From a virus, in the IMG/VR virus record IMGVR_UViG_3300005532_000155, positions 1-35,764 of that record: a stretch of 35,764 nucleotides of DNA. The stretch is one strand, 5' to 3'. Shown here in pieces: positions 2,585 through 23,529 of the stretch (its first letter is position 1; every line of letters begins with the position of its first letter). The position numbers and the translations under genes were made by a program. The notes under the pieces were generated by a model. That model ran no database searches. It was not told the origin of the DNA and saw nothing but the letters and a program-made list of their open reading frames with translations.

Positions 2585-2917
2585 ATGGACCCAGAGATGG
2601 CTGAAGACCTGAAACTACTATCCACAGTCGCCGCAAAAGTCAGCGAGAAGACGGCGCGACGAATCCGGGCCATAGGGCTGGCCACCGGACTGAGCGACGG
2701 CCAGGTGGCGCGGCTGATCCTGGACCGCGCGATGGAACTGTTTGAGCACTGGGACCCGAGCATCAACCCTCGCTATTTCCTCAGCAAAATCCAAATCAGC
2801 GAGCAACAGCTTAACCTCTTTTCTCTTCACCGCGAAGGTTTTGAACGTTTAGAACGTTTAGCCGGTTCATGCGAGGAAACAAAAGACCAGACAAGGGACG
2901 ATTACAGGGATGAATGA
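2585..2917 (+). CDS. Ribbon-helix-helix-like small protein
   Basis: The product has 110 residues. Its first half (roughly residues 18-50, with SEKTARRIRAIGLATGLSD then a long helix) looks like a ribbon-helix-helix or other small dimeric DNA-binding fold, and the C-terminus is acidic. The 3' end overlaps the transposase start by 8 bp, which suggests translational coupling. The GGGGG upstream of ATG 2585 is a weak ribosome site. It could modulate early transcription or assist transposase loading, but this is inference from position. Confidence 0.6.
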   Translation: MDPEMAEDLKLLSTVAAKVSEKTARRIRAIGLATGLSDGQVARLILDRAMELFEHWDPSINPRYFLSKIQISEQQLNLFSLHREGFERLERLAGSCEETKDQTRDDYRDE

Positions 2918-4907
2918 TTGGATTTCAGTAGAAGAGGTTGCGGAGTACGAGCGGATCAGCACGAAGCAGGTGCGGCGCCGGTGCAGAATGGGCGCGCAGC
3001 CGGCGCTGGTTGCGAGGTACGAGGAGCGCAAGTCCGGTTGTCCGGTTCTGAGGATCGACCCGCGGTCGATGACATTCGAGGCGCAGCAGCGGTATCGCGA
3101 GGCCATGCTTCGCCGGATCGCCAGCGAAGCAGACCATGCCAAAGAGGAGAAGCCGCCGGCCAGCCAGGCGCTTTTTCCGGAGACTCCGCTTGACCAGGCG
3201 GTGTGCGCTGCGCGCGCGGAGCTTCCGCCGAGCCAGTTCAGCGTGGCAATGCAGCGGTTCAAAATCATCCAGCCGCTCGTGAACCACGACTTTATGGCGG
3301 TGTCATTCGACCAGACGGGATTCGCGCGGAAGATGGATTACAGCATGGCCATGGCGCGCGCGGCGGGAGTGAGCTACAGGAGCATACGCAGGTGGCGGCA
3401 TGAATTTGAGGAAGTACTAAAATCCGCCGGTCCCAAGGAAGCCTTCATCGCCTTGGCAGACGAGCGGCCGGGGCCGGAGCGCGGAGCGAGGACGCTCGAC
3501 GCGTCCATGAAGGCATTCATCCTGGACTGCTGGATCAACAGAAAGCTGAGCCGAAGGCAGACGTACAAGGCGCTCTGCCAGTACCTCGAAGAAAAGCAGC
3601 GCGGGTGCGGGGCGCGCTGGGCCTACGAGATACCGAGCGAGTCCACGGTGCTCCGCTTTATCAACGCGCCCGAGCCGTACGGTCTGGGCGGCGATGACAA
3701 CCCGCTGCGGGGCGGACCTGAAGCTATTAAAGAAGCCTGCGGCTACATCGACCAGTTCTACGACCACGAGCAGGCTGGTGACGCCTGGATCATCGACGAG
3801 AAAGAGATCGACGGGGTCTTTTACAACCCGGCCCGGCACCGTGAAATCTTCTGGTCAATCTACGTGGTCAGTGTGATTGACGAGCGCACGACGAAGATTC
3901 TGGGATGGAAGCTCGCCTACCGCCTGAACGCCGACACCGTCCTCGACCTGCTGGAAGAAACCCTGCGCAGCTATTTCCTTCCGAAATTCCTTGTCAGCGA
4001 CCGCGGCGGCCACTTCCGCGGCAAGGTTCTGCGCCGCACGACAGTGAGATCGCGCGGTGCGCTGATTGACCGGGCGATCGGTGCGATGGATTTCTTCGGC
4101 GTCGAGGCGCGCCAACCCCGCGACAAGAACCCGCGGGCCAGCCGGATCGAACGGATTCACCGGATTTATTCCGATCTCGCGCAGCGCGACTTCGGCCCAT
4201 CCTGGCGCGGGCGCAACGTGGAAGAGCGGAAGATGACCGGCATTGACGAGCGCGCCGAGCGGCACCTGCGCGAGCACTGCAAGGAAGGCACGAGCGGCCC
4301 GCTATTGCTTTCAACCGCAGACGCCGAGCGGCTGATCGCGCGGTGGGTCGAGGAAATCAACCTTGCAGAAACCGACGCCAAGGGATGCGCGGGGATGAGC
4401 CGTCAGGCGGCCTTTGAAGCCTTCAAGCCGAGCGCAGAAGAGATTGCGCGCCGGCGCGTGACGCAGGCACAGATTGATGAGGCGTTCGCAGAGCGCGATG
4501 AGCGGGTGATCCGTACCGGCGGCATCATCGAGGCCGCTGACGGCCTGCGCTACAGCTCGCCGGAACTAATCGGGCGTGCAGGGGAGAAGGTGACATTTGC
4601 CAGGCTGCGCCGCGACCGGACCAGGATTTACGTCGAGATCGATGGCCGGGTGGTGGTTGCCACGCACCGCGTGCCGGCGCCGAAAGGTGACGCCGCGGCC
4701 GCAGCGCGCGAGGCGGAAAAGCTGGCGAAGATACAGCGGCTCTACACGCGGCTCGGCGGCGTCCCCACCTTGGAGAACGCACCTGAGCACGAGACGCCAG
4801 AGCGGGAAGAACCGAAATCTGTTGCGGCCTCGGTCGAGGTGGCTGAGGCGATTCCCGCCGTGCCGGAGCCGGCCGAAAGGCTTATCGGGTTTGCTGACCT
4901 GGAGTAG
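2910..4907 (+). CDS. A: MuA-like DDE transposase
   Basis: The 665-residue product matches the Mu A transposase plan and length (663 in Mu). An N-terminal winged-HTH of the Mu DNA-binding type (ISVEEVAEYERISTKQVRRR) is followed by further DNA-binding helices. The catalytic RNase H-fold core comes next, with D296 (WIIDEKEID), D364 (LVSDRGGHFRG) and E414 (ASRIERIHRIY), spaced 68 and 50 residues. A beta-barrel-like Mu-type C-terminal region ends in a charged tail. The enzyme should cut and join the prophage ends for replicative transposition, acting on the terminal motif arrays with the ATPase encoded downstream. Start ATG 2910 is coupled to the upstream gene, with an AGGG just before it. Confidence 0.93.
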   Translation: MNDWISVEEVAEYERISTKQVRRRCRMGAQPALVARYEERKSGCPVLRIDPRSMTFEAQQRYREAMLRRIASEADHAKEEKPPASQALFPETPLDQAVCAARAELPPSQFSVAMQRFKIIQPLVNHDFMAVSFDQTGFARKMDYSMAMARAAGVSYRSIRRWRHEFEEVLKSAGPKEAFIALADERPGPERGARTLDASMKAFILDCWINRKLSRRQTYKALCQYLEEKQRGCGARWAYEIPSESTVLRFINAPEPYGLGGDDNPLRGGPEAIKEACGYIDQFYDHEQAGDAWIIDEKEIDGVFYNPARHREIFWSIYVVSVIDERTTKILGWKLAYRLNADTVLDLLEETLRSYFLPKFLVSDRGGHFRGKVLRRTTVRSRGALIDRAIGAMDFFGVEARQPRDKNPRASRIERIHRIYSDLAQRDFGPSWRGRNVEERKMTGIDERAERHLREHCKEGTSGPLLLSTADAERLIARWVEEINLAETDAKGCAGMSRQAAFEAFKPSAEEIARRRVTQAQIDEAFAERDERVIRTGGIIEAADGLRYSSPELIGRAGEKVTFARLRRDRTRIYVEIDGRVVVATHRVPAPKGDAAAAAREAEKLAKIQRLYTRLGGVPTLENAPEHETPEREEPKSVAASVEVAEAIPAVPEPAERLIGFADLE

Positions 4908-4910
4908 GCA

Positions 4911-5321
4911 ATGAAGGACCTGACAAGGCGACTGCGGGCAGCGCCGCTGGAAGCGGCGACAGAGATGATACGCCGCTCGTGCTTTCCACGCGCCGAGCTG
5001 GAGCAGCTTTACAGGTCGCTTCTCCACGACGAGGAGAAGGCGGCGCTGCGCAGCGTGATCGCCATGTGGCTCCACGGCAGACGGCCAGAACCGCAGCCGG
5101 CGTGGCTGGCGGCGCTGGCGAACGGCGACCGGCAGCTGGCGATCCATGCGGTGATCAACGCCGGGATGAGCGACTCCGAGCTTCAGAGATTCGACCGGCT
5201 CGTGAAACTGCAGCCGGATGGGCATCTGGTGAGGCAACTGCGGGCTGCAATCGAGCTGGAACAAAAAAGGAGGGAAATCGGTGGCAAGCGTGGCTCCAGA
5301 AATCGTATCACGCGGCGCTGA
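4911..5321 (+). CDS. Hypothetical protein between transposase and ATPase
   Basis: A 136-residue, predicted all-helical protein starting 3 bp after the transposase stop. Its C-terminus is strongly basic (KRREIGGKRGSRNRITRR), suggesting nucleic-acid binding. The last 41 bp overlap the start of the MuB-like gene, so the two are probably translationally coupled. No family is recognised. By position it may be an accessory factor for transposition. Confidence 0.65.
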   Translation: MKDLTRRLRAAPLEAATEMIRRSCFPRAELEQLYRSLLHDEEKAALRSVIAMWLHGRRPEPQPAWLAALANGDRQLAIHAVINAGMSDSELQRFDRLVKLQPDGHLVRQLRAAIELEQKRREIGGKRGSRNRITRR

Positions 5322-6042
5322 GGGCGGCGTCGTTGTCAACTCGGTTGTGAAAAATCTCACGACCCTGGCGAGGAAGGCTTACCAGGGCAGGTGCATAGTC
5401 GCGTACTCCAGCAGGACGGGGGTCGGGAAATCGCGCGCGGTGGACTACCTGGCCGCGACGCTGATGTATCCGCACCGGATCGTCAGATGCAAGCAGACAA
5501 CGTCTCTCGTGTCGCTGGTGCGGTCCATCGCGCTTGACGAGGACTTTAAGGTCACAAAGTCCCACCACGCGATCCCCAATACTGCGGCGCTTTACGAGCG
5601 CGCGGTAGAGCGCGCCAGGAGCTCGCCCTACCTGCTGGTGATCGACGAGGCGGACCGGCTGAAGGCCAACTGCTTCGAGATGGTGCGAGACCTGTGGGAC
5701 GATGCGCGGATTGGCATCCTGCTGGTCGGAAACGAAATCCTGGAAGCGATCATCAACGAGCGGCACGAGCGCCTCAGCCGGCGGATTCGCGTGCGGTACG
5801 TCCAGCCGGAACTGAAGCGCGACGCGCTGCGCGAGGTGCTCGAAGCGATGGGCTTCGAATTCACCGACGAAGAGTTGTCGCTGATCTACGAGAAGGCAGG
5901 CGGCTCGCCGGGCTGGGCGGAATCCCTCTTGAACACGCGCAACGACATTGCCGAGTCGCACGGAAAGAAGCCTGACATCGAGTTCCTGCGCGGCGCCCTG
6001 CAATACTTCCCGACGCTCGCGCAGAAGGGGAGGAAGCAATGA
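5281..6042 (+). CDS. B: MuB-like AAA+ ATPase, transposition target protein
   Basis: The 253-residue ATPase has a Walker A motif SRTGVGKS (residues 44-51), a Walker B LLVIDEAD (118-125), a sensor-like LLVGNE, and an arginine-rich HERLSRRIR stretch likely to contain the arginine finger. MuB proteins bind DNA as ATP-dependent filaments, select targets, protect the element from self-insertion and stimulate MuA. It is the second large gene of the transposition operon, as in Mu. The GTG start at 5281 is supported by AGGAGG (5268-5273). It is shorter than Mu B (312 residues) because a clear N-terminal HTH extension is missing, as in many MuB/IstB relatives. Confidence 0.88.
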   Translation: MASVAPEIVSRGAEGGVVVNSVVKNLTTLARKAYQGRCIVAYSSRTGVGKSRAVDYLAATLMYPHRIVRCKQTTSLVSLVRSIALDEDFKVTKSHHAIPNTAALYERAVERARSSPYLLVIDEADRLKANCFEMVRDLWDDARIGILLVGNEILEAIINERHERLSRRIRVRYVQPELKRDALREVLEAMGFEFTDEELSLIYEKAGGSPGWAESLLNTRNDIAESHGKKPDIEFLRGALQYFPTLAQKGRKQ

Positions 6043-14695: not shown

Positions 14696-15289
14696 ATGGC
14701 GCGCTCACAGCAAACGCGGGTCGAGGAGCTGGACAGGACCAAGCCCGGCCTCCGGCAGTTCATAGACCTCTGCCTGGACGGCATGAAGCCCCTCGAGCAT
14801 ATCCACGAAGAGGTCGAGAAGAAATTCGGCGAGCGGATTGCCGTCTCAACCCTCTCGAGCTACAAGCAGCGGCGATGGCTGCAGCAGAAGCGGCGCGTGC
14901 AGGAGATCAAGGCGCACGCGCAGGCGATCCTGGAGCTGCTGGCCGGCGGGCGCGCGATTTCCGACATTCAGCAGGCGCTGCTCTTCGAGCGCGTGCAGAG
15001 CGCCATGGACGCCGGCGCGGAACTTGATCCGCACTTTCTGATGGCGGAGCAGCGGAAGTGGGCGCAGATCGAGCTGAAGCGCGCGGAGGTCGAGCAGGCC
15101 AAGGCGGCGCTCGAGCTGAAGCTCGAAGAAGTGAAGCGGCAGCGCGAACGCGAGCGGCGCGAAGTGGAGGAAGCTGTTGAATACGCAAAAGACCCGCGCG
15201 AGATTATCGCGCGAATCCGCGAAATCTACGGCATCGCTGGCCGGAGCGGTGAAGCTGCTGCCGTACCAGCTGGCGTGGATCAACGATGA
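14696..15289 (+). CDS. Terminase small subunit (Mu gp27-like, DUF3486-type)
   Basis: The 197-residue product has an N-terminal HTH (VEKKFGERIAVSTLSSYKQR), a helical core, and a long charged coiled coil (residues about 115-165), matching the plan of Mu gp27-type small terminases. It would recognise the packaging site in headful packaging of the transposed genome. It sits directly upstream of the large subunit, with which it overlaps by 113 bp. Confidence 0.75.
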   Translation: MARSQQTRVEELDRTKPGLRQFIDLCLDGMKPLEHIHEEVEKKFGERIAVSTLSSYKQRRWLQQKRRVQEIKAHAQAILELLAGGRAISDIQQALLFERVQSAMDAGAELDPHFLMAEQRKWAQIELKRAEVEQAKAALELKLEEVKRQRERERREVEEAVEYAKDPREIIARIREIYGIAGRSGEAAAVPAGVDQR

Positions 15290-16586
15290 CGCTCGGATGA
15301 AGATCGTGGTGAAGGGACGGCAAACCGGATACAGCTTTGCGGCAACGCTGCGCGCTGTCCTCAACTGCCTGGAGCGCCGGCTGACCTGGATTTTCCTCTC
15401 GAAGGGCGAGAGGCAATCCCGGCTGCTGATGGAAAAGGTGGCGGACCACGCGCGCGCAATCGGAGCAGCGCTGGAATTTCACGACTCGGAATTTATGGAA
15501 GGGACTCTGATCAAGCAGCTTGAAGCGCGGTTCCCGAACGGCTCGGTGATCTACGGGCTGCCCGCCAACCCTGACACGGCGCGCGGCTACACGGGCAATG
15601 TGACGCTGGACGAATTTGCGTTTCACCAGGATGCCGCGAAGGTTTATTCCGCGCTGTTCCCGACCATCACGCGCGGCTTCGGGATCGAAATTATCTCGAC
15701 TCCGGCGGGCCAGCAGGGCAAGTACTTCGAAATTGCGAAGAGCGCCGGGCTGGTGGACGGCTACCCGCGCGAGGCAGGATCGCCATGGAGCGCGCACCGT
15801 GTGGACATCTTCGAGGCCGTGCGCCAGGGCCTGGCGGAGCAGGCGGGGATGAGCGGCGATCAGATGATCGCCCAGCTGCGCGCCGGCTGCGAGGACGAAG
15901 AAGCGTGGCTGCAGGAATACTGCTGCCAGTTCCTCTCTGATGCGGCGAACTACATCCCGATGGAGATGATTTTCAGCTGCGTCAGCGAGCAGGCCTCGAC
16001 CGAATGGCCGATTGAAGATCTGCGCGGCAAGGAGTGGTATCTCGGGATTGACATCGGGCGGAAGCGCGACCTGACGATTGCCTGGGCGTTTGAGAAGCTC
16101 GGCGACACGCTCTGGAGCCGCAAGCTGCTGGCGATGTCACGCGTGCCGTTTGAAGAGCAGGAAAAGGCGATTGCCGATATGCTGGAAGCCGGACCGCGGC
16201 GCTGCTCGATTGATCAGTCGGGGCTTGGCATGATGCTTGCCGAGCGCCTGGCGCGGCGCTACCCGATGGTCGAGCCGGTGCAGTTTACGGCGCAGGTGAA
16301 AGAGCGCCTGGCGCCGCTGGTGAAGGCAGCGTTTGAGAATCGCACGGTGCGCATTCCCGACAACCGCGAGATTCGCGGAGACATCAATGCTGTCAAGCGG
16401 TTTGTGACGCCCGCGGGAAACATCCGCTTTGACGCTGAGCACACGGACAAGGGGCACGCGGACCGCTTCTGGGCGCTGGCGCTCGCGCTCGATGCGGCCT
16501 CGCAGCCGGCGCACCACATGACCGACGCTTTCCTGGCCGGCGAGCCGCGCGCAGCGGAATTTGAGCTTGAGCCGATGGCGATCTGA
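15177..16586 (+). CDS. terL: Terminase large subunit (Mu gp28-like)
   Basis: The 469-residue motor has a Walker A variant (KGRQTGYS, residues 46-53) and a Walker B LDEFAF (D145, E146). A C-terminal RNase H-like nuclease carries D292 (GIDIGRKRDL), D346 (CSIDQS) and D429 (GHADRFWA). It cuts and pumps DNA into the prohead. The TTG at 15177 has GGAGGAA 5-6 nt upstream and is used here, giving an unusually long overlap with the small subunit. A GTG near 15249, at VKLLPYQ, is an alternative that would still keep the whole ATPase domain. Confidence 0.9.
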   Translation: MNTQKTRARLSRESAKSTASLAGAVKLLPYQLAWINDDARMKIVVKGRQTGYSFAATLRAVLNCLERRLTWIFLSKGERQSRLLMEKVADHARAIGAALEFHDSEFMEGTLIKQLEARFPNGSVIYGLPANPDTARGYTGNVTLDEFAFHQDAAKVYSALFPTITRGFGIEIISTPAGQQGKYFEIAKSAGLVDGYPREAGSPWSAHRVDIFEAVRQGLAEQAGMSGDQMIAQLRAGCEDEEAWLQEYCCQFLSDAANYIPMEMIFSCVSEQASTEWPIEDLRGKEWYLGIDIGRKRDLTIAWAFEKLGDTLWSRKLLAMSRVPFEEQEKAIADMLEAGPRRCSIDQSGLGMMLAERLARRYPMVEPVQFTAQVKERLAPLVKAAFENRTVRIPDNREIRGDINAVKRFVTPAGNIRFDAEHTDKGHADRFWALALALDAASQPAHHMTDAFLAGEPRAAEFELEPMAI

Positions 16587-19500
16587 TGGCCTGGAGAGAC
16601 ACAATCCGAAGGATGCTGCACGGAACGAACGGTACGGCGCTCGCCGAGCCTGACTTTGCCGAGCGCGGCGTAGACACCTCCGAATTTGTCGGGCCGGCGG
16701 GGATGCCGCAGAAGCCGGTCCCGAAGCCAAAGGAACAGGCGCAGACGAAGCTGGAAGTTGATGAGAGCGTGCAGGGGCTTCCGGGTACGGCAAACCTGGC
16801 GGGTTTTGTCCAGGACATCGGCGAATACGATTCAAAGCTGATCGGCCTGGGCGCGATCCGAATCTATCAGAAGATGCGCCGCAACGACCCGACCGTGGCG
16901 GCGCTTGAGCTTGCCCGCACGCTGCCGATCCGCGCCGCGGACTGGGACATCGTGCCGGGCATCGACCAGACGCAGCCTGGCTACGCGCTCGCGAAAGAAA
17001 TTGCGGACATGGCGCGGGAGAACTTCTTCGGCGGCCTTGAGCGCACCACCGCGGCAGGCGAAAAGCGGACACAGACATTCGAGAGCGTGATTGAGAACGC
17101 GCTGCTTTCGGTGCTCGGCTGCGCTGCGCACGAGGACATCTGGGAAGTCGATAAGGACAAGGGGCGCGTCAGGCTGGCGAGGCTCGCGCCGCGGCTGCCC
17201 GACACCTTCTATCAGTTCGTCACGGAACCGGACGGCGAGACGCTTTACGAGCTGATTCAGTTTGGTTATCGCGGCCCCGCCATCGAGCTGCTGCCCATCA
17301 AGGCCAGCAAGCTGGCGTACTTTGTGCTAAACCGCGAGGGCGCGAACTTCTACGGCCGCTCGATTTTCCGCCCGTGCTACACCCCCTGGTACTTCAAGCA
17401 GCACCTGATGAAGATCGAGGCGGTGGCCGTCGAACGCAACGGCCTGGGCATCCCAACGATTGAGCTTGGCCCGAACGCGAGCGACGACGACAAGCGCGCA
17501 GCCTGGGACTACGCTTCGAAGCTCTCGACGAACGAACGCTCCGCAATGGTGCTCCCGAACGGATTCACGTTCGCGCTGACCGGCATTAAGGGGCGCGTGC
17601 TTTCGGCCCGGGAGGCCATTCAATACTACGACCAGCAAATCCTGATCGCGGGGCTTTCCTCCTGGCTGCTGCTGGGCCAGACATCCACCGGAACGCGTGC
17701 GGTCGGCAGCGTGCAGAAGGATTTCTTCCTGCTGGCTGAGGAAGCGTTTGCGCAGATGGTCGCGGATACGATCACCACGACCAGCCTGCGCCGCCTGGTG
17801 GATTTCAATTATCGCGCCAAGCCCGGCGAGGTGCTGCCCTATCCGAAGCTGGTGTGCAGCGATATCCGCATGGTGGAGCTTGAAACCGTGCTCAACGCAG
17901 TGCGCGAACTCGCCGCGCAGGACGTGGACATGCTGCGGCCGACGCCGGAGCGAGACGACGCCGTCGCGGAGATGCTGGGTCTGCCGAAGCTCTCGAAGGG
18001 CGAGCGCGGACCGCGCCTTGCGCCCATTGTCACGCGGCAGAACCTGGCCAACGAAGTCGTGGAGGGAACCGGGGAGCACATCTCACCGGCAACGCCCAAG
18101 GGCGGCGAGAAGCGCACCGATGTGGTAGTGAAGGAAACCTCGAGCGACGGAAGCAAGCGGAAAGAGGACGTCAAACTTTCAGAGGGCGGACCTCACCCGA
18201 CGGTGTACTTCATCCGGCACGCGCACACGGCGCTGAACAAGGACACCGACCCGGCGGACGAGAAGCTGAAGGGTCAGACCGACGTGCCGCCGGACGCCGA
18301 GGGCCTCGAACAGGCCCGGCGCGACGCAGAACAGTTCCGCGGCAAGAAGGTCGACGATATCTTCACAAGCCCGCTGAGCCGCGCGCGGGCGCTGGCCGAT
18401 GCCATCGCCACGGTGACCGGAGCCGCCGTCCATGACGATCCCGACCTGCTGCCGTGGGATTACCACAAGCTGGTCGGCATGACGCGCAAGGCCGCAGAGC
18501 CGCTGCTTGACGAGGCGCGGGCCCATCCGGATTCTGACCTTGTCGGCGAACCCTATGCCGATTACCTCGAGCGGTGGAAGCGGGGCGTGCAGCACGCCAT
18601 CAGCCACGCAAAGGCCGAGGGCAGAAGCGTCGCGGTGGTTACGCACTCGCCCAACCTGAAGGACCTTGATTACGCGCTCGGGCGCGGCCCTGCGGGCGCC
18701 GACGAGGCCCCGGAAACTGGAGGCGTCGTGAGCGTGAGGCTTGATGACAGGGTCCCGGCCGACCCGACCATCGGCCACTGGGTGACGATTAACGGGAACC
18801 ACGTCTTTATTGACGAATCCGGCTCAGTGCTCAAGGGGCCTCGGGAACTCGTCGGCAAGAGGTTCGGTGATGAACCGATTGTAAGAGGAACGGCGGATGC
18901 TGTTGCGGACCGCCTGCGCGGGATGGGATACGACACCCGAGTGCAGCACTCCGGCAGCGCCTACGGTCCCAGCTCGTACGTCTATTTCAGGCGGGCGGAC
19001 CAGAAGGGCGTTGAATACTACGCCAGGATCAGCACGCACGACCACAACCCGCGCGGGATAGAAAACGGTGAAGTTGGCTCCTACCACCCTTATCACAACA
19101 CTGCGGAGGAGATCGCCAACGATGCGCACGCGACGGCGTCAAGGTATGAGGATGCGAAGGCGCGCGCCAGGACGAGGGCCGAGGCGGAGTCCATAAGAAG
19201 GTCGAGGCTGACTCCCGAGGAGCGGGCGCGCGAGGACAGAATGGGCCGCCAGCGGCAGTACATCCAGACGATCAAGAATCCTTCCAAGAGAGCTGCGGCG
19301 ATTCGAGATTTTGAAGCGCGGTGGGGAGAGAAATTTGCAGAGGGCGGCCAAACCCACCGCGACGCTGCATCGACCTGCGTAAGCTGTGTATCTCAGCAGC
19401 CGGAGCGCGTCGCTGCTGGCCATGTGCCTGAGGATAAGGCCGCCCGCATCGATGATACCGTTTTCCTCGCCGATGTCAAGAGGCCCCGGACGCTGCAGAG

Positions 19501-20359
19501 TCCGTTCTGGCGCGAGGGCCACGATCCGTCGCTTCGGCTGGTGCATCCGCACGAGATGCACGTCGACTTCCCCGCGCACCAGGCGAAGATGGACGCCGCC
19601 GAGCTGAAGGTGAAGCACATCCTGCTGCGCGCACGGCGCAAACTGCTGCGCGACGCTGCAGCGCGCGGCGCTGACATTCTACAGCGCGGAGCAAGCGTCA
19701 CAAGCCTTACCGTGGCTCCGCCCATTGAAGTGAAGCCTGAGATCGAGCCGCTGCTCGCTGCAATCTATCAATACGCGCGCGAGGAGTTCAGAAACGAGCA
19801 CAACCGCCTGGCGGCGTCCGCTCCGGTGGCGCTGGCTGAGGACAGCCGGCCGGCATCCGATCGGCCGGACCCCAGCCCGCTGCTGGCCGAGATCGCGCTC
19901 GACCGCTACGCGGGAGAGATCGCGAACGGGGTGCGGCGCGTGGTCAATAACATCCGCACCGGAGCCGTAACGATCGCGGATCTGCCGCGCAACCCGGATG
20001 GCAGCTACGATCTGACCGGCCTCAGCAAAAACGAGCTTGCGGACCTGATCTGGGAAGAGGCCCAGCAGCAGCAGTCGGGCATCCCGGCCATCAGTCCAAA
20101 CCTTGAGGACAATATCGCCGCCGGAGCGGTGCGCGACGCCTTCCGGCGCGGCCGCAGCCAGGAGGCGCAGCAGATCATTGAAGCGCTCGAGCGCGCCGGC
20201 GCGAAGGTGCAGATCATCCGGGTCGCGATGCTCGACAAGAACGTCTGCGGGCCGTGCGAAGCCGCCGACGGCAAGCCGTGGCCGCTCGACGTGCCCGTGA
20301 GCGTGATCTGCGAGGGCGGCGACCTGTGCCGCTGCGAACCCGTGGAAGTGAGGGACTGA
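16586..20359 (+). CDS. Portal - histidine phosphatase - MuF head protein fusion
   Basis: One uninterrupted 1257-residue frame. Residues about 60-480 are a DUF935/Mu gp29-type portal. Residues about 540-725 form a histidine-phosphatase (phosphoglycerate mutase-like) domain: RHAH with catalytic H545, SPLSRAR (595-601), and the second histidine in VVTHS (H687). A strand-rich segment GHWVTINGNHVFID (730-743) and a basic helical stretch follow. The C-terminal 270 residues resemble Mu F/gp30-type minor head proteins and end in a zinc-like cluster (CGPC at 1221-1224, CRC at 1248-1250). In Mu, portal and F are separate genes of about 500 and 430 residues. The product should form the portal ring at the capsid vertex. 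The phosphatase part could act on an ejected or encapsidated substrate, or be structural. The start overlaps the terminase stop (TGATG). Confidence 0.85.
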   Translation: MAWRDTIRRMLHGTNGTALAEPDFAERGVDTSEFVGPAGMPQKPVPKPKEQAQTKLEVDESVQGLPGTANLAGFVQDIGEYDSKLIGLGAIRIYQKMRRNDPTVAALELARTLPIRAADWDIVPGIDQTQPGYALAKEIADMARENFFGGLERTTAAGEKRTQTFESVIENALLSVLGCAAHEDIWEVDKDKGRVRLARLAPRLPDTFYQFVTEPDGETLYELIQFGYRGPAIELLPIKASKLAYFVLNREGANFYGRSIFRPCYTPWYFKQHLMKIEAVAVERNGLGIPTIELGPNASDDDKRAAWDYASKLSTNERSAMVLPNGFTFALTGIKGRVLSAREAIQYYDQQILIAGLSSWLLLGQTSTGTRAVGSVQKDFFLLAEEAFAQMVADTITTTSLRRLVDFNYRAKPGEVLPYPKLVCSDIRMVELETVLNAVRELAAQDVDMLRPTPERDDAVAEMLGLPKLSKGERGPRLAPIVTRQNLANEVVEGTGEHISPATPKGGEKRTDVVVKETSSDGSKRKEDVKLSEGGPHPTVYFIRHAHTALNKDTDPADEKLKGQTDVPPDAEGLEQARRDAEQFRGKKVDDIFTSPLSRARALADAIATVTGAAVHDDPDLLPWDYHKLVGMTRKAAEPLLDEARAHPDSDLVGEPYADYLERWKRGVQHAISHAKAEGRSVAVVTHSPNLKDLDYALGRGPAGADEAPETGGVVSVRLDDRVPADPTIGHWVTINGNHVFIDESGSVLKGPRELVGKRFGDEPIVRGTADAVADRLRGMGYDTRVQHSGSAYGPSSYVYFRRADQKGVEYYARISTHDHNPRGIENGEVGSYHPYHNTAEEIANDAHATASRYEDAKARARTRAEAESIRRSRLTPEERAREDRMGRQRQYIQTIKNPSKRAAAIRDFEARWGEKFAEGGQTHRDAASTCVSCVSQQPERVAAGHVPEDKAARIDDTVFLADVKRPRTLQSPFWREGHDPSLRLVHPHEMHVDFPAHQAKMDAAELKVKHILLRARRKLLRDAAARGADILQRGASVTSLTVAPPIEVKPEIEPLLAAIYQYAREEFRNEHNRLAASAPVALAEDSRPASDRPDPSPLLAEIALDRYAGEIANGVRRVVNNIRTGAVTIADLPRNPDGSYDLTGLSKNELADLIWEEAQQQQSGIPAISPNLEDNIAAGAVRDAFRRGRSQEAQQIIEALERAGAKVQIIRVAMLDKNVCGPCEAADGKPWPLDVPVSVICEGGDLCRCEPVEVRD
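18173..19347 (+). repeat. Imperfect direct repeat bounding the phosphatase cassette
   Basis: Bases 18173-18189 (AAACTTTCAGAGGGCGG) and 19331-19347 (AAATTTGCAGAGGGCGG) agree at 15 of 17 positions. Both lie in the same codon phase, encoding KLSEGG (from residue 530) and KFAEGG (from residue 916). The offset is 1158 bp, exactly 386 codons, so the segment between them can be gained or lost without a frameshift. It contains the phosphatase domain. Confidence 0.7.
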
Positions 20360-20377
20360 ATATTGCGAGGTGATACG

Positions 20378-21913
20378 ATGGTGACGAAAAAGGAAGCAGA
20401 CGGCGAGCATCCCAGCTCGCACTACCTTGTGGTTGAAGACCCGGAGAAGCCGACCACCTGGCACCTGAGAGTGAAAGGGACGGACGGCAAGCCGGACCAC
20501 CGCCTGATGGGCGCGGCCTGGGCGGCGCTGCACAAGGGCTACCGAGGGAACAAGTACGAAGGGCCGAACAAGGCAGAAGCGCTGCGCAAGCTGACGGCCA
20601 TGTACCACGCCGAGGGCCTCGACCTGCCCAGCGAGACCTCCAGCGAGGACCCGCGCCAGGTCTTCGAGCTTTCCGACCTTGCCGCGCACGCGCGCATCCC
20701 CATCGCAGTGACGGGAGAATGGGTGAAGAGCGGGAGGAAATTCTCGATCACGCCGAAGCACCTGGCAGAGATCAAGCGGAACTTCGAACGTCGGCAGGTG
20801 CCGATCAATGTGGACTACGACCACGCGAGCGAGCAGCCGGAGGTCGCACTGGGCGGGCCGATCCCGAGCGCCGGCGAGCTGGTGGCCATCGAGGGCCCCG
20901 AGACCTACGTTGACCCGCGCGGAAACACCCGGCAGATTTTGTGGGGCCGGTTCGATCCGACCGACCGGGCCCGAGCGCTGGTGCGAGCGCGGGAATACCG
21001 CTACGTCTCCCCGGCCATTGACTTCAACGCGAAATCGAAGGAAACAGGAGAGCCGCTGGGTGCTGCGCTCACTACCGTGGCCCTGACCAATCGGCCATTC
21101 CTCGAAGAAATGCCGCAGGTGCGGCTGAGCGACCCGGAATTCCAACTGATGGATTCAAACATCGTCCATGTACCCGGAAACATCTCAAGCCCGCAATCGG
21201 CGGGAAAAGGAGGCAAGGTGAAAACCTACAAAGTGAAGAAGCTCGCCGACGGCGAGCACAAGGGCAAGTACGCGGTCTTCGAGGCTGACGGCGGAGAGCC
21301 GCTCGGCCTGGCAGAGGTCGAGCCGGACGAAGACGACAACCAGAAGGCGAGCGAGGCGCTGCTCAGCGAGATCGGCTGCGCCGGACTGAAGCTCTCCGAG
21401 GTCAAAGCACTGGTCGAGCGTGGAGCGGCGGTCAACCACGAGACCAAACTGCTCAGCGAGATCGTTGACGCGAAGGGCAGGATCGAGGTCCGCAAGCTGG
21501 ACGAACTGACCGACAGCGGGAAGGTGAAGCCCAGCGCGACGCGCCGGGCGCTCGAAGCCGAGAAGAAGGCCCAGGATGCCTTCGCCGCGGGCAAGATCAA
21601 GGCCGCAGATCTGCAGGCGGCGACGCGGCTCGCGCTGAGCGATGCAGACGCTTTTGACCGCTTCATCGCCAACGCCGCAGCAGCCGTGCCTCTCGGCGAG
21701 CAGGGAACGGCCGGCGAGAGCGCTTCAGGGGCCGCAAACGCAGCCTGGAGCGAGAAGCTCGAAAAGCGCGCGGCGGAGCTGCTGAATCTGGGCAAGGCCA
21801 AGGACCCGGAGAGGGCGCTGCAACTCGCGGAGTACGAGCTGATCCACACGCCCGATGGCCTCCAGCTCTACGAGATGGCACGCAAGGAAAGGATCGAGGC
21901 CGCAAAGCGCTAA
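20378..21913 (+). CDS. Mu I-like prohead protease with C-terminal scaffold
   Basis: The 511-residue product starts at ATG 20378, with GAGGTGA 5 nt upstream. Residues 10-75 form an N-terminal accessory domain (WHLRVKGTDGKPDHRLMGAA). The protease domain follows, at about residues 95-250, with the Mu I-type INVDYDH motif (D146-H149) and RYVSPAIDFN. From about residue 281 the protein is acidic and helical, as in scaffolds. It should process the prohead and direct capsid assembly. Residues 258-266, MDSNIVHVP, are identical to the start of the major capsid protein. An internal GTG at 21218 probably makes the scaffold alone. Confidence 0.8.
   Translation: MVTKKEADGEHPSSHYLVVEDPEKPTTWHLRVKGTDGKPDHRLMGAAWAALHKGYRGNKYEGPNKAEALRKLTAMYHAEGLDLPSETSSEDPRQVFELSDLAAHARIPIAVTGEWVKSGRKFSITPKHLAEIKRNFERRQVPINVDYDHASEQPEVALGGPIPSAGELVAIEGPETYVDPRGNTRQILWGRFDPTDRARALVRAREYRYVSPAIDFNAKSKETGEPLGAALTTVALTNRPFLEEMPQVRLSDPEFQLMDSNIVHVPGNISSPQSAGKGGKVKTYKVKKLADGEHKGKYAVFEADGGEPLGLAEVEPDEDDNQKASEALLSEIGCAGLKLSEVKALVERGAAVNHETKLLSEIVDAKGRIEVRKLDELTDSGKVKPSATRRALEAEKKAQDAFAAGKIKAADLQAATRLALSDADAFDRFIANAAAAVPLGEQGTAGESASGAANAAWSEKLEKRAAELLNLGKAKDPERALQLAEYELIHTPDGLQLYEMARKERIEAAKR
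21218..21913 (+). CDS. Scaffold protein from internal start (Mu Z-like)
   Basis: Inside the protease gene and in the same frame, AAAGGAGG (about 21206-21213) stands 4-5 nt before GTG 21218, a ribosome site better than those of many whole genes here. The 231-residue product begins MKTYKVKKL, then is acidic and helical (residues about 60-230), typical of scaffolds. In Mu and many phages the scaffold is produced from an internal start of the protease gene, so free scaffold exceeds protease. Confidence 0.65.
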   Translation: MKTYKVKKLADGEHKGKYAVFEADGGEPLGLAEVEPDEDDNQKASEALLSEIGCAGLKLSEVKALVERGAAVNHETKLLSEIVDAKGRIEVRKLDELTDSGKVKPSATRRALEAEKKAQDAFAAGKIKAADLQAATRLALSDADAFDRFIANAAAAVPLGEQGTAGESASGAANAAWSEKLEKRAAELLNLGKAKDPERALQLAEYELIHTPDGLQLYEMARKERIEAAKR

Positions 21914-22575: not shown

Positions 22576-23529
22576 ATGGACTCCAATATTGTCCACGTTC
22601 CCACGCTGGACACTCGGATCAGCGTCGCGTACCGCAACCGCGCCTTTGTCGCCGACCAGGTCTTCCCGATCGTGGCCACCGACAAGGACACGGGGAAGTA
22701 CGCGAAGTACTCCAAGCAGGCGCTCCGTGCCGTGGTGGACACGCTCGATGAGGGCGGCTATCCCCGGCGCTATCGCCTGAACCAGGAACCCTATGGGTTC
22801 TACGATTGCCAGGGCCACGGGGTAGAGGTCCTGCTGACGGACCGCACCCGAAAGAACGCCGACAACCCGGCGGAGGTGGACCTGGTCCACCGCGACTTCG
22901 TGCAGGGGCTCATCGCCATGGGCCGCGAACTCGAAGTCATCAACCTGATCAACGCCACCAACATTCCGCAGAATGTCACGCTGTCCGGCACGTCGCAGTG
23001 GTCGAACAGCGCGAGCGATCCGATTGCCGCCATCATGGCGCAGATCGAAACGATCCTGCAGAACGTGCCCGGCTCGCAGCCGGAACAGATGCGGCTCCTG
23101 CTGCCCCGCAGCGTGTGGCGCACGATCAAAACCAACACGGCCGTCAAGGACTACTACAAATACACGCTGAACATCGGCGTGGATGCGAAGCGCCTTGACA
23201 CGGGCTGGCTGGCCGCCGCTCTGGGGATCGAGAAGGTCGTGATCGCCGACAACGTCGGCCTGACCTCGCAGCCCGGCCAGACCGACACGCTGGCATTTAA
23301 CTGGCCGTCGGCCCCCGGCAACAGCATCGCGCTGCTCTACTACACCACCGGAACGCCTGCGCCGCTGACGCCGAACTTCGGCTACATCTTCCGCAGCCGG
23401 ATCGATTTCTACCCGCTGCGCGAGGTCCGCGACGAGCACGGCCTGGGCACGCTGATCATCAGCCAGGAATCGCGCGACACGCTGATGATCGAACCCAACG
23501 CCGCTTTCCTGTGGGTGAACCCCATTTAG
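22576..23529 (+). CDS. Major capsid protein
   Basis: The 317-residue product has the order and style of an HK97-fold capsid protein: an N-terminal arm (MDSNIVHVP), a region with FPIVATDKDTGKYAKYSKQA, a central helix (HRDFVQGLIAMGRELEVINL), and C-terminal strands ending LRTL-type IEPNAAFLWVN. A strong GAGGAGG precedes ATG 22576, and a perfect palindrome follows the stop, as often seen around the most expressed head gene. It forms the icosahedral shell with the decoration protein. Its length fits the capsid size of siphovirus-type transposable phages. Confidence 0.8.
   Translation: MDSNIVHVPTLDTRISVAYRNRAFVADQVFPIVATDKDTGKYAKYSKQALRAVVDTLDEGGYPRRYRLNQEPYGFYDCQGHGVEVLLTDRTRKNADNPAEVDLVHRDFVQGLIAMGRELEVINLINATNIPQNVTLSGTSQWSNSASDPIAAIMAQIETILQNVPGSQPEQMRLLLPRSVWRTIKTNTAVKDYYKYTLNIGVDAKRLDTGWLAAALGIEKVVIADNVGLTSQPGQTDTLAFNWPSAPGNSIALLYYTTGTPAPLTPNFGYIFRSRIDFYPLREVRDEHGLGTLIISQESRDTLMIEPNAAFLWVNPI

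Follow-up and report, generated by a model that had tools for sequence, protein, structure and literature searches.

Why would a phage carry a histidine phosphatase between two proteins of its own head? The question is raised by one open reading frame in the window, by which is meant the whole stretch of 35,764 nucleotides that was analysed (IMG/VR virus record IMGVR_UViG_3300005532_000155). This ORF (16586-20359, + strand) runs from an ATG start without interruption and encodes 1257 residues, in which a portal, a histidine phosphatase, an unnamed domain and a MuF-like end follow one another. Judging from the surrounding genes, all on the same strand, the 35.8-kb record is a Mu-like transposable phage. 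It encodes a transposase, which is a marker of such phages (2910-4907; phrog_310, E 5e-46), a DNA transposition protein (5281-6042; phrog_296, E 1e-25), a terminase large subunit (15177-16586; PF03237, PF17289), a Mu-like head protease, or I protein (20363-21913; PF10123, E 6e-24), and a major capsid protein (22576-23529; phrog_1005, E 1e-45). The first base of the ORF is also the final one of the terminase stop codon.

The first-pass annotation of this DNA described an uninterrupted chain of 1257 residues, and this is confirmed. Third-position GC lies between 0.69 and 0.95 in every 100-codon block along the 1257-codon frame and the periodicity is steady. Nothing therefore points to separate genes having been joined by a frame error, which that annotation had named as one way in which its reading might fail. 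The architecture that it proposed, of portal, phosphatase and MuF head protein, stands for the first two parts on Pfam evidence, the only matches above cut-off being Portal_Mu (residues 92-454) and His_Phos_1 (residues 540-690). The third part is recovered by alignment with relatives, while the Pfam search of the window protein gave no Phage_Mu_F (PF04233) match. The Mu-type portal core (residues 92-454; 16859-17947) matches PF06074 at E 1.1e-41, covering profile positions 2-324 of 336, and the portal family phrog_113 at E 1e-60. It is followed by a linker (residues 481-534; 18026-18187), delimited by Pfam and the AlphaFold2 model, in which model confidence is mostly low.

A scan of viral contigs with a portal alignment returned 80 loci, five of which align with the portal as well as with the far C-terminal end of the window protein, their chains being 706-784 residues long. 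These portal-MuF fusions (L017, L066, L039, L042 and L023) likewise hold a portal N-terminus and a MuF-like C-terminus in one chain; however, they are about 500 residues shorter and lack both the phosphatase and the middle domain. The nearest portal relative, L017, is a 737-residue fusion without the insert and has 39% identity. Its portal match extends to residue 459 and its C-terminal match begins at 477, where the window protein has about 500 residues between the two. The extra residues thus appear to have been inserted at the portal/MuF joint. Several relatives join portal and MuF without a phosphatase, so that such a fusion is in itself nothing unusual; by these alignments it is common in this portal branch, and the window protein stands out by the approximately 500 additional residues at the joint. 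Another enzyme was observed on the same portal type in L093 (1478-3916), where Portal_Mu and an ADP-ribosyltransferase exoenzyme domain (PF03496, E 8e-15) form one chain of 813 residues.

The MuF-like C-terminus itself (residues 985-1255; 19538-20350) was delimited by alignment with L017, L066 and other portal-MuF fusions. In a 16-row alignment of MuF-like C-termini, C1221, C1224, D1228, C1248 and R1249 are conserved, forming a Cys/Arg motif that spans C1221 to R1249 (20246-20332). The aligned relative L017 has a Phage_Mu_F match at E 9e-6 and 26.8 bits, just under the Pfam cut-off of 29.6. Between phosphatase and MuF-like end, a small beta-rich domain is predicted at residues 731-816 (18776-19033), which has the sequence WVTINGNHVFID...YARISTHDH and shows the same strands in two separate models. 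Pfam, PHROGs and NCBIfam gave no family match for this domain, and a DNA pattern scan for the WVTINGNHVFID motif found no match. The model of residues 728-1257 has a mean pLDDT of 68, and Foldseek finds no PDB match for it at E <=0.001, hence no name is given to the middle domain.

The phosphatase domain (residues 535-727; 18188-18766) matches PF00300 at E 2.2e-22, with a His_Phos_1 score of 80 bits against a cut-off of 21.7 over residues 540-690. Structure prediction had been chosen beforehand as a check on which the first-pass reading could fall, and the region gives a histidine phosphatase fold at Z of about 20. With 34 phage homologues as input, AlphaFold2 gives a model of residues 500-961 whose pLDDT is about 95 over the phosphatase. 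It aligns at Z 20.5 with the phosphoserine phosphatase 4ij6 (181 residues, 2.5 A) and at Z 19.7 with PhoE 1h2e. The catalytic motifs lie where they had been claimed, at R544-H545 (18215-18220), S595-P-L-S-R599-A-R601 and T686-H687. Across 52 non-redundant phage sequences, R544, H545, R599, E655 and R663 are invariant, R599 (18380-18382) being the second phosphate-pocket arginine, and the second catalytic histidine, H687 (18644-18646), is kept in 51. Such near-invariance is as expected of a working enzyme.

By its RH motif, pocket Arg and His residues, predicted fold and profile match, the window domain is assigned to branch 1 of the histidine phosphatase superfamily (PF00300). The phage family shares the fold, the RH motif, the second Arg and the second His with the branch 1 phosphatases PhoE 1h2e, PspA 4ij5 and CobC. 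However, the LRE glutamate of that group is replaced by proline in 45 of the 52 phage members, followed by tryptophan and then Asn, Asp or His (PW[N/D/H]xG), and the window copy reads PWD at this position. A glutamate proton donor of the PhoE type (LRE) is not universal across the superfamily. In view of this proline, only superfamily membership is claimed, with no PhoE-type mechanism or named equivalog. Several named phosphatases in NCBIfam were matched, but with scores so far under their cut-offs that none of their substrates can be assigned to the window phosphatase. The window copy is also divergent within its family. It has RHA in place of RHG, and position 627, which is glycine in 51 of the 52 sequences, is histidine in this copy alone. 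Given this His and a long branch in the tree, the putative activity of this particular copy may have drifted. The family corresponds to phrog_12933, whose profile matches the window at E 1e-13 and the relatives scanned at 1e-14 to 1e-24, and for which the PHROGs entry gives no function and no head association.

How this family is placed in other phages was examined by scanning viral contigs with a four-sequence phosphatase alignment, which returned 78 loci. Several of these loci encode fusions to head proteins. The phosphatase follows a Phage_portal_3 domain in L124, L128, L129 and L169 (L129 being a copy of L128 from a second metagenome), a SU10-type portal in L141 and a MuF domain in L146, while it precedes an XkdF head protease in L103 and L127. 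In L120 (4382-7437) it precedes a C-terminal piece of a further portal family; the stop of the upstream portal ORF overlaps the start of this ORF at GTGA, and the phosphatase seems to sit inside a split portal gene, with a frameshift there possible. The family is linked repeatedly to unrelated head proteins, namely the Mu-type portal, Phage_portal_3, the SU10-type portal, the further portal family, MuF and the XkdF protease. Other chains were also found. L123 (5041-8499) has the phosphatase in a 1153-residue protein with a polyvalent-type ADP-ribosyltransferase segment, and in L131 (5929-12561) it opens a chain, at least 2211 residues long, that contains repeats and segments resembling zinc ribbons; of this chain, the phosphatase part alone matches PDB sequences. 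In L159 (5583-6857), the phosphatase is followed by an apparent head protease of the DUF2213 type, as judged by eye only. When the phosphatases of the window and of L118 served as queries, no fusion closer to that of the window was found.

With the window excluded, the phosphatase is fused to a head protein in 7 of 51 non-redundant loci, and in 26 further loci a gene for the terminase large subunit or the portal lies no more than about 4.3 kb away (17 identified by local profiles and 9 by PHROGs). Together, at least 33 of the 51 loci are head-fused or near a terminase or portal gene, a lower bound because several contigs are cut and not every neighbouring gene was scanned. Among the unfused non-redundant loci, 19 of 44 have a terminase or portal gene within 1 kb, where the rough expectation for such a position is perhaps 3 kb of a 45-kb genome, which is our own estimate rather than a computed control. 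In the tree, 53 phage sequences are split from 14 bacterial sequences with support of 100/98. The head-fused members are scattered among stand-alone ones; parsimony needs at least seven changes of head fusion, and the partners are non-homologous. The window copy lies on a long branch (2.73) near L118, L119, L147 and L150, its exact placement being unsure.

Nearly all that is seen of the family here comes from contigs of uncultured viruses. Among 50,697 public phage records, three family members used as queries gave distant matches only, mostly at 25-40% identity, and these lie in contigs that lack annotation or in genes resembling those of hosts. The phosphatases in GenBank phage records (L002-L007 and later matches) were considered as phage evidence and rejected, as, at 20-40% identity, they resemble genes of bacteria that lie in contigs labelled as phage. 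The records of L002-L007 and of Listeria phage LM 4-14-1 hold several ordinary bacterial-looking phosphatase genes and are possibly host DNA.

The single frame, the fold, the catalytic residues and the repeated linkage to head genes and proteins are computational results; from them we infer, with somewhat better than even confidence, that the ORF is a real portal-phosphatase-MuF protein whose active phosphatase would be held on the portal ring in the head and delivered with the DNA, the activity, position, delivery and substrate being the inferred elements. A phage-type histidine phosphatase would have entered the joint of a portal-MuF fusion in a Mu-like transposable phage, and the domain, most likely active, would sit on the portal ring, facing no further out than the head interior. 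This placement is suggested because the C-terminal side of the portal and MuF both belong to the head interior. In tailed phages, portals, MuF proteins and head proteases are generally taken to have in common a location in, or at, the interior of the head. From there, the phosphatase would probably reach the host cell with the DNA, either as the whole chain or as a piece freed by the adjoining head protease, and would remove phosphate early in infection from a metabolite, a nucleotide signal or a phosphoprotein. Such delivery would resemble that of other head enzymes, for instance T4 Alt (discussed in PMC5512222). The twelve phosphatase copies per portal suggested by the first-pass annotation would follow from portal stoichiometry, and cleavage by the adjoining head protease could change that number. 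Its suggestion of a delivered phosphate-removing activity gains strength from the separate fusions to unrelated portals, MuF and head protease, both the activity and the delivery being putative.

Other explanations account for parts of these observations. The phosphatase might act in the producing cell, in head assembly or late metabolism, for instance by freeing phosphate or trimming nucleotides, having been joined to head proteins only because head genes are expressed late, and would then not be delivered. Many members do stand alone beside terminase and portal and could be just late genes, and a lysis amidase gene (L105) and a ribonucleotide reductase gene (L145) lie within 6 kb of family members. 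A cytosolic late enzyme, however, needs no repeated fusion to portals and MuF proteins that end up in the head, which leaves this explanation a secondary one with perhaps a modest chance of being right. It is improbable that the fold has a purely structural, non-catalytic use on the portal, either as a spacer or as a module that contacts DNA. The change of G627 to His and RHA for RHG in the divergent window copy would fit such a use, but the window copy, like the family, retains every residue of the pocket, and a structural need common to unrelated partner proteins is hard to see. The new structural use of the fold that had been offered as an alternative is accordingly disfavoured, the catalytic residues being essentially invariant in 52 diverse homologues.

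The one fusion of the phosphatase to a LigD phosphoesterase and an ATP-dependent ligase domain, in L143 (5860-8613), hints at other roles for the family and is the source of a further explanation, in which the enzyme heals nucleic-acid ends, of phage DNA or host RNA, together with ligases. As L143 is a single case and the nearest relatives of solved structure have small phosphorylated molecules or phosphoserine as substrates, such a role is very unlikely for the family. Least probable of all is that the fusion is an artefact in which a lost stop or an assembly join placed separate genes in one frame. The protein does come from a single contig, exact 8-mer full-length scans of viral and genome contigs having found no close relative and no second copy, but its three parts share one frame with steady third-position GC, an independent fusion of Phage_portal_3 and phosphatase is present in two metagenomes (L128 and L129), and relatives already join portal and MuF.

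Enzymes joined to head proteins are a known class. Polyvalent proteins and portal- or MuF-effector fusions carry RNase, 2H phosphoesterase, RelA/SpoT, ADP-ribosyltransferase and Nudix domains on portal, MuF or head protease, and their packaging and injection are predicted (Iyer et al., 2017, PMC5512222; PMC9503650). The 2022 NAD-ADPr survey placed Nudix domains on the same three partner types (PMC9503650). The window protein resembles this class in having its enzyme domain in one chain with head proteins. The MuF polymorphic toxins likewise place a MuF domain in a multi-domain protein of the packaging module, but their toxin domains follow MuF, whereas the window enzyme lies between portal and MuF and Pfam finds no toxin domain in the protein (PMC5576092). 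A histidine phosphatase was not found among the fusions described: the main text of PMC5512222 has no occurrence of 'phosphatase', that of PMC9503650 none of 'histidine phosphatase', and 'phosphatase' is absent from the text of PMC5576092. A full-text literature search for histidine phosphatase with phage and portal protein returned one phage paper, which lists both as separate genes, and one on food bacteria.

Head-carried phage enzymes are thus a known but thinly sampled class, to which the present family suggests an addition, in that phages may carry a histidine phosphatase inside the particle and perhaps into the cell. The separate linkage of one enzyme family to unrelated head proteins that have in common a place in or on the head interior is strong indirect evidence for packaging. 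More tentatively, at a little under even confidence, we propose an undescribed family of virion-carried histidine phosphatases that has been attached several times to unrelated head proteins. Together with the DNA it would enter the host and there dephosphorylate a signal or protein that serves in defence or at the start of infection. The findings supply phrog_12933 with a testable function. If active and delivered, these enzymes would bring phosphate removal into the first minutes of infection, and there would be a defined family in which to seek the substrate.
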